Source: Magnetococcales bacterium
GTDB taxonomy: Bacteria; Pseudomonadota; Magnetococcia; Magnetococcales; JADGAP01
NCBI GenBank assembly: GCA_015231965.1
Contig: JADGAP010000006.1
Location: 5,721-47,944 of the forward strand
DNA length: 42,224 bases
Reading direction: 5' to 3'
The notes below the pieces were generated by a model. The model searched no databases. It saw only the letters and a program-made list of their open reading frames with translations, and was not told the origin of the DNA. Each line of letters begins with the position of its first letter. Positions within the stretch are counted from its first letter, which is position 1. Position numbers and translations under genes: made by a program. Positions 15,268-36,409 of this stretch are shown one piece after another.

Positions 15268-16835
15268 TCAGACCCGGGCGTTGTTCTTGGCCGTCTCCAT
15301 GATTCGGCCCACATCCAGGATCGGGGCCACCCGGCCATTCCCCAGAATGGTGGCCCCGGAAAATTCCGCCACGTCGCGAAACACCTCGCCCAGGGATTTG
15401 ATCACCACCTGGCTCTGTCCGATCACCCGATCCACCACCATGCCCATGCGGTTGCGATCCACTTCGGTGATCACCACCTGCTCTTTGTCCAGGCGCCGGG
15501 AGGCGTCTTCCAGGGAAAAGACGTCCCGCAACCGCACGTAGGGGACGATCTCGTTGCGGATGTTGATGATTTGTCGGCCGTGGGCGTCGTCCACATCCTG
15601 GCGGGTGAGTTTGACACACTCCTTGACCGTGGAGAGGGGCAGCACGAACTGCTCGTCGCCGCTTTGCACCAGAAAACCGTCGATAATCGCCAAAGTCAGG
15701 GGCAATTGGATGGTCAGGGTCATGCCCCGTCCGGGTTGACTGACCACGCTGATTTCGCCGCGCAACGAATCGATGGTTTTTTTCACCACGTCCATGCCCA
15801 CCCCCCGTCCGGAGACGTTGGTGATCGTCTCGGCGGTGGAAAAGCCGGGAAGAAAAATGAGGTTGAAAATTTCTTGATCCGACAGGTTGGACTCCGGGCC
15901 GATCATCCCCTTGGCTTCGGCCTTGGCGCGGATTTTTTGCACATCCAGCCCCCGCCCGTCGTCCTCGATGCGCACCAGAACATGGGCCCCGGAGTGGATG
16001 GCGGAGAGCCGCACCACGCCCGTGGCCGGTTTGCCCGCGGCCAGCCGCTCCGCCGGGGTTTCGACGCCGTGGTCGATGCTGTTGCGCAGAATGATGAACT
16101 CGCCGCGCACGTCATCCTCGCGACAGGGGGCGGTGAGCAGCACGTCCCACTGGAAATAGCAGACCCCCACGTCCAGCGCCTCCAGGGGGGGCAGGGCGTC
16201 GGTGTGGCAGACCACCTCGCACTCCCCCAACTGACGCAAGGCGTTCAAATAGATCAGCGGATTGGTGGCGCGACGAAAGATGGGGTCGGTGGGACGGAAA
16301 TGAAAACAGATGTTGAAGACGCCGCGGTCCCGGGTCGGGGGGAGGAGCGGGGTCGGGGCGGCGGAACGCTCCGGTTGGTCGTTCAGGGAGGCGAAGGCGA
16401 CCTTGATCCGTTCCACCTCGCGGGGGTCGGCGATGCGGGTCTGGTTGAGGATCACGGCCGCCACTTGATCCTTGGCCGAGAGGGTGAGGTCGATGACCTG
16501 ACGGTCGAGGCGCGCCCGCCCGTTGCGCAGGCGGTCGGAAGATCCGCAATGGCTTGTCGAATCAGGATATGGCGCGCCCGCCCGTTGCGCAGGCGGTCGT
16601 AGAAGCTCTCCACGTGATGGGTCAGGCGGGAGGCCGCCTCGAAGCCGTACATGCTGGCCGTGCCCTTGATGGTGTGCATGGCGCGGAACACCCGTCCCAT
16701 CAAATCCAGGTCCTCGGGCGCGGCTTCCAGTTGCAACAGGGCGTTTTCCAGATCGTTCAGATTCTCCTGGACGTCGGTCTTGAACTGACGCAGATCGTCT
16801 TCCGAAATCAGGTCCGAGAGTTCAAAGGAATCCAT
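15268..16835 (-). pseudogene. cheA: cheA, split by a 62-bp insertion and lacking the dimerisation domain
   Basis: Chemotaxis histidine kinase in pieces. The N-terminal frame (16835 down to the lesion) is an HPt domain with phospho-acceptor His54 in AMHTIKGTASMYGF. At 16509-16599 a 29-bp sequence occurs twice, 62 bp apart; the 62 extra bases shift the frame and the product would end at 16452. Removing them restores a continuous reading YDRLRNGRARLDRQVIDLTL into the second frame, giving 501 residues. That frame has the FNICFHFRPTDPIFRRATNP block, the ATPase N box RNSIDHGVE, DDGRGLD, SGRGVGMDVV and the CheW-like P5 domain. Between CREDDVRGEFIIL and RNSIDHG (DNA near 16085-16105) the P3 helices and the start of P4, normally about 150 residues, are missing. 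It is therefore doubly defective and most likely non-functional. Confidence 0.88.
16509..16599. repeat. 29-bp direct repeats flanking 33 bp inside cheA
   Basis: Copies at 16509-16537 and 16571-16599 (each ggcgcgcccgcccgttgcgc plus aggcggtcg) are identical. The 33-bp spacer 16538-16570 has no counterpart in other CheA proteins. Deletion of one repeat plus the spacer restores the cheA frame exactly. Confidence 0.95.
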
Positions 16836-16841
16836 GGCGGT

Positions 16842-17372
16842 TCATCCCGTGGCCTGGCAAACGGCGGCGTCCCGCGGGGCGACGTTGCGGGGGAGGGCGG
16901 CCCCCCCCGTTCGGTGAGGATCAGTTCGTTTTCCGAAAACACCTTGTTCACATCCAACAGGATGATGAACCCTTCCTCCATCTTGCCGATGCCCAGGATG
17001 TAGTCGGTCTTCAGGCCGAGGCCCACGTCGGGGGGGCTCGATCTGGTTTTCCGGCAGTTCGATGACTTCATCCACCGAATCGGCCAGCGCCCCCAGGACG
17101 ATGCGGTTTTCCCGGAACGCGCTCTCCACGATGACCACCCGGGTTTTGCGGCTGCGTTAGGTGAGGGGCTGACCGAACTTGCGCTTGAGATCCACCACGG
17201 GCACCACGTTGCCCCGCACGTTGATCACGCCGCGCACGAACTCCGGCGAGCCGGGAATTTCGGAGAGGTCGGGAAGTTTCAGCACCTCCCGCACGTTGGT
17301 GATGGAGATGGCGAAGGTCTCCCCTCCCAATTGGAAGGTCAGATATTGGTTGGTCAGGCTGGCTGCGGCCAT
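16842..17372 (-). pseudogene. cheW: cheW with an in-frame stop and homopolymer frameshifts
   Basis: Adaptor linking receptors to CheA. The start MAAASLTNQYLTFQLGGETF at 17372 leads into FAISITNVREVL, IPGSPEFVRGVINVRGNVVP and DLKRKFGQPLT, then a TAA at 17157-17159 in the same frame; reading through gives RSRKTRVVIVESAF and IVLGALADSVDEVIELPENQ, the normal continuation. GAA to TAA is the simplest explanation. At 17030-17036 a run of seven G (plus strand) shifts the frame; the next frame gives LGLKTDYILGIGKMEEGFII and DVNKVFSENELILTE. A run of eight C at 16901-16908 shifts it back to end VCQATG with TGA at 16842, four bases before the cheA ATG. Homopolymer shifts could be sequencing errors; the stop codon is not of that type. 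Confidence 0.83.
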
Positions 17373-17451
17373 GAACGGTCTCTCTTTCGGAGGTTGAATC
17401 CGCTGTTTCCGGTGGGGGGAGGCGTTGCGTCGCCTCCCCCGGAAAAAGGGT

Positions 17452-17693
17452 TCAGAATTTCTCGAAGGCGACATCCATGGATTCGTCGCTCAGGTCGTCC
17501 AAGAGATTCAGCACCACGCCCTTGGCGGCGACGGGATGGCGATCCACCACTTTATTGACCAGTTTGACCTTCATCGCCGCGTCCGCGACCAAGGTCAGGC
17601 CGTTCCATCCCGCCCATGCGACCAGAAGGGTGAACAGCAGCCCCCCCCAAAAAAAACCACTCCCAATTTCAGGGCAATCTTCAAGTTTTTCAC
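17452..17693 (-). pseudogene. N-terminal fragment of a methyl-accepting chemotaxis protein
   Basis: From a GTG at 17693 with AAGGGA upstream, the frame reads VKNLKIALKLGVVFF, a standard chemoreceptor N-terminus. At a T8G8 run (17641-17656) the frame shifts, and the second frame continues GGLLFTLLVAWAGWNGLTLV (transmembrane helix 1) and KVKLVNKVVDRHPVAAKGVV, the start of a ligand-binding domain. It ends at AFEKF with TGA, after about 80 residues, without second membrane helix, HAMP or signalling domain. It is placed just before cheW, as a full receptor would be. It may be a relic of a deleted receptor; a small membrane protein starting at an ATG at 17715 is the alternative reading. The shift could be a homopolymer sequencing error, but the missing 3' part cannot. 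Confidence 0.55.
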
Positions 17694-17780
17694 GGTCGGT
17701 TTCCCTTGTGGACAATGCTCGTGGATAAGGTCGCGCTCGGGCGCGCCAAGGCGTCCGTCGGCGACGGTCAAGTCATGGAT

Positions 17781-18168: not shown

Positions 18169-18438
18169 TAGAGTCGTTCCATTTTAAGTTTGCACAAGAT
18201 GTCAAGTGGAGTCTGGTGGTGCAACCCACTTTATAACGAAGAAATCGTCATTCCCGCGAAGGCGGGAATCCAGGGGCGGGGGAGGGAAATGCCGAGATCG
18301 CTAGAAGGAACCAAGCCCCCTTTCCGTTTGTTTGAAGGGAGCCATTCACCGATCGGCTTTCCTGGATTCCCGCTTTCGCGGGAATGACGAGCGTAAATTT
18401 TTTAGCTGGAAATGTGCAAAACTTGTTTGGAATGACTA
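18169..18438. repeat. Composite repeat family 1, copy D (complete)
   Basis: Outer ends tagagtcgttcca and ggaatgacta form an inverted pair. Next inside are the subterminal motifs gtttgcac and gtgcaaaac, then arms at 18246-18273 and 18362-18389. The core between the arms (aggggcgggggagggaaatg, the agatcgctagaaggaaccaa stretch, gtttgaagggagcc, ccgatcggctttcctg) is shared with copies B, E and G. It lies in intergenic DNA. Confidence 0.85.
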
Positions 18439-23569: not shown

Positions 23570-23955
23570 ACTATATTATCGCCATTCCATTTAAGAATTG
23601 CACATGGCGTCAAGCAGCGCCTGGGTTATGCAACCAACTCCCCCATGACGAAACCGTCATTCCCGCGGAAGCGGGAATCCAGGGGCGGGGGAGGGAAATG
23701 CAGGCGTCGCCACGAGGATCCAAGCCCCTTTTCCGATTGTCTGAAGGGAGCCATTCGCCGATCGGCTTTCCTGGATTCCCGCTTTCGCGGGAATGACGAG
23801 CGTAAAATCTGTGGCTGGCAATGTGTAAAAATGGGTTGGAATGACTCTAAGAGAGCCATTCGCCGATCGGCTTTCCTGGATTCCCGCTTCCGCGGGAATG
23901 ACGAGCGTAAATTCTTTAGCTGGCAATGTGCAAAACTTATTTGGAACTACTATAG
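23570..23955. repeat. Composite repeat family 1, copy E with a duplicated right part
   Basis: Outer left end at about 23570 (ctatattatcgccattcc), arms at 23655-23682 and 23771-23798, then a right flank ending ggaatgactcta at 23849. From 23853 the block gagccattcgccgatcgg through a third arm (23876-23903) and the right flank to ggaactactata (23955) is repeated: a tandem duplication of about 105 bp. It lies between the kinase gene and the RAYT-like gene. Confidence 0.88.
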
Positions 23956-34030: not shown

Positions 34031-34170
34031 GGCGCGCCGCGCCGAAGCAAAAAACGCTTCGGCTTGTTTTAAAAGCGCGCCTGAAAGGCAAAAGCAACAG
34101 CAAAGTCAAAAGCGAAAGTCAAAACCGTAGGGCTCCGCCCTAGGACCCGCCAGGGGGATGATCCCCCTGG
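34031..34170. repeat. Repeat family 2, copy at 34 kb
   Basis: A nested hairpin of 51 bp at 34031-34081: outer stem ggcgcgc / gcgcgcc and inner stem gccgaagc / gcttcggc. It is followed by A-rich DNA (agcaacagcaaagtcaaaag), a hairpin tagggctccgcccta (34128-34142) and another, ccaggggga / tccccctgg (34150-34170). It lies between the divergent uvrA and siroheme genes. Confidence 0.8.
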
Positions 34171-34970: not shown

Positions 34971-36103
34971 TGAAGTTCGAGAACTTCCAGGCCGGGCGAT
35001 GGCAGGGGCGTTACCACTACCGGAGCTTCGAGCCCACGCTGGTCAACCATGGCTGGACCTGGGAAGACCCCACCATCCACGCCTTGCTGGAGTCGGCCAA
35101 CCGCGCCCTGGGCGAACTCAACGCCTTTTCCCTGATTGTTCCCGATATCGACCTGTTCATTCAAATGCACGTGGTCAAGGAGGCGCAAACCTCAAGCCGC
35201 ATCGAGGGAACCCAAACCGGCATCGACGAAGCCCTGATGCCTGAGGAACACATCCAGGTGGAAAAACGGGATGACTGGCGCGAGGTGCGCAACTACATCG
35301 AGGCGGTCAACACGGCCATCGCCAAGCTCCAGACGCTGCCCCTGTCCAACCGTCTGCTGAAAGAGACCCACGCCGTCCTCATGCAGGGGGTGCGGGGCGA
35401 ACATAAGCAGCCGGGGGAATTCCGCACCAGCCAGAACTGGGTCGGCGGTTCCAAGTTGAACGACGCCGTGTACATCCCGCCCCATCCCGATGGGGTTCCG
35501 GAGTTGATGAGCGATCTTGAGAAATTATGGCACAACGAGGCCATCACCGTTCCCCATCTGGTGCGGATCGCCATCAGTCATTACCAGTTCGAGACCATCC
35601 ACCCGTTCAACGACGGCAACGGGCGCATCGGGCGGCTGTTGATTCCCCTTTATCTGGTCAGTCATGGCCTGCTGGCCAAGCCCTCGCTCTATCTTTCCGA
35701 CTTCTTCGAGCGCAACCGGTCCAGCTACTACGACGCCCTGATGCGGGTGCGCGTCGCCAACGACATGATCCACTGGGTGCGGTTTTTCTTGAGTGGCGTA
35801 ACCGAAACCGCCACCAAGGGCCGGGAGGTGTTCCGCCAGATCCTGGCGCTGCGCACCGAGGTCGAACAAATCGTGCTGCGTTTGGGCAAACGCACGCCCA
35901 ACGCCCGCCAGGTTCTGAACCTGCTATACAGCCAACCGCTGATCTCCGCCTCGGACATCGAGCGAACCCTGAAGGTCAGCGCGCCGACCGCCAACGCCCT
36001 GATCCGCGATCTTTCGCAGTTGGGCGTTCTGGCGGAAACCACCGGCCAACGACGCGGGCGTACCTATGTCTTTGAACGCTACCTGGCCCTCTTCTCTAGT
36101 TAA
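34967..36103 (+). CDS. Class II Fic AMP-transferase (SoFic-like)
   Basis: A 378-residue Fic protein which would transfer AMP (or a related group) to hydroxyls of target proteins. The N-terminal Fic_N domain ends with the self-inhibitory helix TSSRIEGT, which fits [S/T]xxxE[G/N]; the Glu blocks ATP binding until released. The catalytic motif HPFNDGNGRIGR is complete, with the flap region VYIPPHPDGVPELM before it. The C-terminal 70 residues form a winged helix (SASDIERTLKVSAPTANALI and LGVLAETTGQRRGRTYVFER). The start has GGAGA at -11; a second ATG follows directly. Its TAA stop lies within the first of three palindromes shared with the end of the converging glycosyltransferase gene. No antitoxin gene is needed as inhibition is built in. 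Confidence 0.93.
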   Translation: MMKFENFQAGRWQGRYHYRSFEPTLVNHGWTWEDPTIHALLESANRALGELNAFSLIVPDIDLFIQMHVVKEAQTSSRIEGTQTGIDEALMPEEHIQVEKRDDWREVRNYIEAVNTAIAKLQTLPLSNRLLKETHAVLMQGVRGEHKQPGEFRTSQNWVGGSKLNDAVYIPPHPDGVPELMSDLEKLWHNEAITVPHLVRIAISHYQFETIHPFNDGNGRIGRLLIPLYLVSHGLLAKPSLYLSDFFERNRSSYYDALMRVRVANDMIHWVRFFLSGVTETATKGREVFRQILALRTEVEQIVLRLGKRTPNARQVLNLLYSQPLISASDIERTLKVSAPTANALIRDLSQLGVLAETTGQRRGRTYVFERYLALFSS

Positions 36104-36409
36104 GGGAAATCGATTTCCCTTAACTTAGCCTGACGTCAAGTTAAAGATGGCCTATATTCCCCCTCATCTCTCCTGACGAAATCCCGCCAAATCCTCCTCC
36201 TTAGTTAAGGAAAACACGATTCCCTTAACTAAACCCCAAGCTAAGTTAAAGATGGCCTATATTCCCCTCATCTCTCCTGACGAAATGCCGCCAAATCCTC
36301 CTTCTAAGTTAAGGGAAATCCGTTTCCCTTAACTTAGTCTGACGCTAAGTTAAAGATGGCCTATATTCCCCTTCAAATCTCCTGACGGAATGCCGCCAGA
36401 TCCTCCAGC
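36098..36409. repeat. Three tandem units of about 104 bp, each with a palindrome and a glycosyltransferase 3' end
   Basis: Units start at about 36098, 36203 and 36307. Each has a palindrome of agttaaggg / cccttaact type, then aagttaaagatggcctatat, tcccc, and on the minus strand the coding tail EDLAAFRQE. In unit 1 the palindrome 36098-36125 is perfect over 28 bp; in unit 3 it is a 15-bp stem with loop tccg (36304-36337). Unit 3 is the real end of the glycosyltransferase (FRQEI then TGA at 36373); units 1 and 2 are ghosts reading EDLAGFRQER and EDLAAFRQER before TGA. Confidence 0.93.
36304..36337. terminator. Palindrome between converging Fic and glycosyltransferase genes
   Basis: A perfect 15-bp stem ctaagttaagggaaa / tttcccttaacttag with loop tccg, 36 bp after the glycosyltransferase stop. 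With its two relatives at 36098 and 36203 it could end transcription in both directions; no T-run is present, so a protein-binding operator is also possible. Confidence 0.5.

Follow-up and report, generated by a model that had tools for sequence, protein, structure and literature searches.

The cheA gene in the window, a stretch of 42,224 nucleotides from a Magnetococcales genome, was broken by a 62-bp insertion. The insertion is very probably the product of off-target spacer integration by the Cas1-Cas2 of the organism's own type I-E CRISPR system ("neo-CRISPR"). The most fitting reading is a CRISPR integrase error that left a rare natural scar. The coordinates of the insertion and of the genes around it are listed in Table 1.

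Table 1. Features of the cheA insertion and of the surrounding chemotaxis cluster (positions in the window)
Feature	Position	Strand	Evidence
Rest of cheA past the insertion: HATPase_c, CheW-like domain	15268..16508	-	Pfam, C293 paralogue, G012 orthologue
R1, copy 1 of the duplicated 29-bp target; leader-side end 16508/16509	16509..16537	+	Exact repeat
33-bp captured DNA ("spacer")	16538..16570	+	Exact copy of G000:C286:13167-13199
R2, copy 2 of the duplicated 29-bp target	16571..16599	+	Identical to R1
cheA 5' part as far as the duplication, with the HPt (P1) domain	16600..16835	-	Pfam Hpt; G012 orthologue
cheW pseudogene	16898..17381	-	tblastn with G012 CheW, 72% and 67% identity, two frames
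Chemoreceptor (MCP) stub, about 63 residues in two frames	17536..17723	-	tblastn with the 747-aa G012 receptor

The two repeats were 100% identical over 29 bp and were separated by 33 bp, and the coordinates and sizes given in the original prediction were correct. One repeat plus the spacer made up 62 bp, which is no multiple of 3 and broke the cheA frame, as had been claimed. When both flanks of the 62-bp unit were joined, leaving out one repeat and the spacer, a 501-codon frame was open through RNGRARLDRQVIDLTL. Alignment with the CheA of a relative agreed with this: in G012 the cheA orthologue ran uninterrupted over 741 codons, read RNGKAVLTKEVIDLTL at the equivalent point and had no insertion. 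The last base of R1 was common to the donor described below; the event could therefore be parsed as 29 bp duplicated and 33 bp inserted, or as 28 bp and 34 bp.

A census of exact repeats of at least 27 bp with a period of 55-68 was carried out over 1.40 Mb (37%) of the genome. The cheA unit was the sole isolated unit of such size in this part. The remaining matches were the native CRISPR array on contig C269, a degenerate tandem repeat on C265, and neighbours of N runs on C259. Because the other matches fell into these kinds, the cheA repeat unit is more than chance.

A search of the genome with the surrounding 301 bases revealed a second exact match, of 34 bases, at C286:13166-13199. A pattern search of the same genome allowing up to 3 mismatches showed that the 33-bp sequence was present in two places only, cheA and C286:13167-13199, so that the captured DNA had an identifiable exact copy. 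The sequence was absent from 47 other genomes of the order (up to 2 mismatches), and viral contigs contained no exact match to the insert. The C286 site was intergenic, with a 250-aa frame on one side and a 335-aa frame on the other, and examination of its flanks showed no duplication. Since the C286 copy was intergenic and without flanking duplication, C286 was taken to be the donor and cheA the target, and we infer that copying went from C286 to cheA.

The direct repeat of the target around inserted DNA is a likeness to an insertion sequence with its target-site duplication. Unlike an insertion sequence, the cheA insert was 33 bp long and occurred in one other place only, where no duplication flanked it. 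A duplication of 29 bp is also far longer than is usual for transposases. A transposon or mobile repeat was rejected on these grounds (33 bp, two places only, 0/47 other genomes, donor unflanked).

The genome had a type I-E CRISPR-Cas system of its own. A pattern taken from the array repeats of other genomes gave hundreds of matches in the genome, grouped in arrays with a 61-bp period. Three arrays were read, on C89 (L083), C143 (L084), and C269 (L127), with 113, 74, and 56 repeats, respectively; all three were very large. The native repeat was GGTTCCCCCGCACTCGCGGGGATAGACC, 28 bp in length, and 230 of the 238 native spacers in these arrays measured exactly 33 nt. Their first base was A in 4/238 and G in 65/238. 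Contig C274 carried cas3, cas8e, cas11e, cas7e, an unassigned frame at the cas5e position, and cas6e cut by the contig end. Contig C89 opened with RPLNENEVTRLAKSRG*, followed by the leader and then the array. By eye, RPLNENEVTRLAKSRG reads as resembling the Cas2 end of relatives (RPLTQPELEKL...).

The cas operon was broken by contig ends (L082:19040, L083:1), with cas6e truncated and with cas1 and the greater part of cas2 missing from the assembly. A Pfam profile search for Cas1 gave no match in this genome, a search with the type I-E Cas1 of a relative gave nothing convincing in it, and neither cas1 nor cas2 was found in the assembly. The negative Pfam search had suggested a genome without CRISPR, and this was overturned by the repeat-pattern and Cas3 searches. 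In the wider search, Cas1 was present in 33 of 61 genomes, and several of these 33 had arrays with repeats of 28-29 bp and a 61-bp period. As C274 ended in cas6e and C89 began at the apparent cas2 end, cas1 and most of cas2 may well lie in the assembly gap between these two contigs, estimated at about 1.4 kb, which would best account for the negative Cas1 searches. Among the contigs retrieved, none was shorter than 2008 bases, and a contig of about 1.4 kb may thus have been dropped from the assembly. Both a cas1-cas2 pair within this gap and the action of Cas1-Cas2 at cheA are inferred.

The cheA event was compared with normal spacer acquisition. In this genome a normal acquisition brings in 33 bp and leaves a 28-bp duplication, and the cheA event inserted 33 (34) bp and duplicated 29 (28) bp, giving a unit of 62 bp vs 61 bp in most native units. 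The insert, at 33 bp (34 with the shared base), thus had the native spacer length, and the duplication, at 29 bp (28 with a 34-bp insert), was of repeat length, the native repeat being 28 bp. The empty site in + orientation read acggtcga/GGCGCGCCCGCCCGTTGCGCAGGCGGTC vs atgggaga/GGTTCCCCCGCACTCGCGGGGATAGACC at the native leader-repeat junction. Both had GA/GG at the junction, followed by CCCGC. With 8 upstream bases included, the likeness to the leader-repeat was 17/36, a score reached by 0.84% of genomic positions, and around the junction it was 14/22, reached by 0.04% of positions, the width having been chosen in both comparisons after seeing the site. The opposite orientation had no notable likeness to the junction. 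The cheA target therefore appears to resemble the native leader-repeat junction, and this was counted as moderate support because of how the width was chosen. In the + orientation the first base of the insert was G, which is common in native spacers; in the other orientation it was A, which is rare.

The donor was flanked by GG on one side and, on the other strand, by AAA. Native protospacers, sought in order to learn the native PAM, were found in neither phage records nor viral contigs. One native spacer (L083 1282-1314) matched the organism's own chromosome at L153:17070-17102 at 32/33 bases, a possible self-targeting spacer; this single self-match is too little to define a PAM motif.

From these comparisons the following course of events is proposed. 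Cas1-Cas2 of the own type I-E system would have been loaded with a 33-bp prespacer from the host chromosome, at the intergenic site on C286. The + strand at 16508/16509 would presumably have been taken for the native leader-repeat junction, and the prespacer would have been integrated off target, into cheA. Two strand transfers 28-29 bp apart would open the target, and gap filling would leave a copy of the 29 bp on each side of the insert, just as the repeat is doubled in a normal array. The product would be a "neo-CRISPR" of one spacer and two repeats, acting as an insertional mutation in a chemotaxis cluster with other lesions. The original prediction had treated the repeats as the cause of the break. 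They are better read as its consequence, a target-site duplication left when 33 bp copied from elsewhere were inserted; the genome's own type I-E CRISPR has spacers of this length.

The same picture of duplication, insert, and duplication would be yielded by a template switch, in which 33 nt were copied from a distant locus with a return 29 nt upstream, or by fill-in of a staggered break that captured a fragment, and templated insertions are known in principle. Such an origin is improbable: the insert had exactly the native spacer length, the duplication was within one base of the native repeat, and the microhomology at the insert junctions was only 1 and 0 shared bases. In addition, no comparable insertions of other sizes were found in the 1.40 Mb, and the genome had no Ku family match. 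The assembly was fragmented (314 contigs), and a chimera of the assembly or library, with the 62 bp not being in the cell, was also considered. It is very improbable, since the unit lay well inside a 47.9-kb contig and pieces of spacer length and repeat length are not expected from a chimera.

No sign of a working array was seen at cheA. The duplicated cheA sequence shared 12/28 bases with the native repeat. Compared with shuffled sequences, it folded no better (z 0.21), while the native repeat had a z of -3.16. A functional CRISPR array at cheA was rejected accordingly, there being no native-type hairpin for Cas6e.

Further lesions were found in the chemotaxis cluster. The Pfam Hpt domain was recognised in the frame 16452-16835 (E 1.3e-13), with 72% identity to the G012 orthologue. 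Separate from the 62-bp insertion, cheA (15268-16835, - strand) lacked about 205 residues near 16100, with a frame-preserving junction. Comparison with the G012 orthologue and the C293 paralogue showed that the missing residues included H-kinase_dim and the start of HATPase_c. The cheW gene was interrupted twice, by an in-frame TAA (17157-17159) and by a frameshift that lay in the G run 17030-17036. The upstream half of the cluster (16898-17723, - strand) was decayed, and the downstream frames for STAS and response-regulator proteins were open. Further CheA-type frames were found in the genome, one of them, on C293, intact; the loss of this cluster is thus plausibly harmless.

These lesions bear on what had been predicted for the gene. 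Repair of cheA by a single deletion was correct as to the reading frame and not as to the protein, as the joined gene would still be without the roughly 205 aa. Recent decay was supported, both repeat copies and the donor being identical and several lesions being present in the cheA-cheW-MCP set. The suggested reversible on/off state was not. Repeats of 29 bp that lie 33 bp apart can be deleted by slippage, which would join the frame, and cheA might in this way be switched by slippage or recombination between the repeats. Such a switch is hardly credible here: the joined product would have neither the dimerisation domain nor the start of the ATPase domain, cheW had both a stop and a frameshift, and all that was left of the receptor was a stub. 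Moreover, since the 33 bp came from an unlinked locus, loss of the 62 bp would not be reversible by slippage. A phase-variable gene was rejected, as neither state was intact.

Off-target activity of the CRISPR integrase has been demonstrated mainly under overexpression of Cas1-Cas2, and natural examples of off-target integration are, to our knowledge, few. Nivala, Shipman and Church reportedly described off-target integration in 2018 (Nat Microbiol 3:310), and are said to have proposed a few natural cases too. Their neo-CRISPR reportedly consists of a spacer-length insert outside an array, a repeat-length target duplication, and a leader-repeat-like site. That Cas1-Cas2 can integrate outside arrays is established. 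In a passage of PMC11788318, Nivala et al. 2018 is cited for Cas1-Cas2 integrations in non-array regions upon overexpression, and a passage of PMC9456107 also cites Nivala, Shipman and Church 2018 on off-target integration.

Like the neo-CRISPR of Nivala et al. 2018, the cheA case had a spacer-length insert, a repeat-length duplication, and a junction-like site. It differed in being natural rather than following overexpression, and in having an insert that copies the host chromosome, with a donor that can be named. It also differed in that the duplication read 29 bp, not 28 bp, and in that cas1-cas2 were absent from the assembly. In Streptococcus, spacers are known to be acquired ectopically within CRISPR arrays, according to passages of PMC5338259 and PMC7999890. 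The cheA event was like the events described there in that a spacer was inserted at an unusual place and the target was duplicated; in those passages, however, the events lay within arrays and a genuine repeat was duplicated, while the cheA event lay in a protein-coding gene.

It seems most apt to count the cheA event as a new natural case of off-array Cas1-Cas2 integration. Its added value is that the donor, the target, the arrays, and the effector genes were all visible in one genome. A search rule was also gained, namely to look for exact copies of distant DNA that are of spacer length and enclosed by an isolated duplication of repeat length. This rule could be used to measure the rate at which CRISPR adaptation mutates the host, and to learn how new arrays might begin. 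It is quite possible, if somewhat short of probable, that in wild bacteria the host chromosome is mutated by insertions arising from CRISPR adaptation, with self-derived prespacers entering ordinary genes and leaving recognisable 28-29/33 scars. If this were true, the cheA scar would be a natural type I-E case in which a single genome holds donor, target, and arrays, and such scars could be counted across genomes.

Other repeats were observed in the window and the genome. The repeat unit at L131:3399 was array-like (27-bp repeat, 33-bp spacer, period 60); its spacer held the repeat motif, and it was rejected as a degenerate tandem repeat. A REP-like inverted repeat, CGTCATTCCCGCG...CGCGGGAAT, occurred at 18245-18390 and 23744-23935, the latter copy within a 105-bp tandem duplication, and similar copies were present on L112 and L117. 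A 12-bp tandem repeat of AAAAGCAAAGTC was found at 34084-34124 and again right where contig C306 begins (L094:1-124). The region 36098-36406 consisted of three tandem copies of a 104-bp unit with the palindrome-like AGTTAAGGGAAA...TTTCCCTTAACT.
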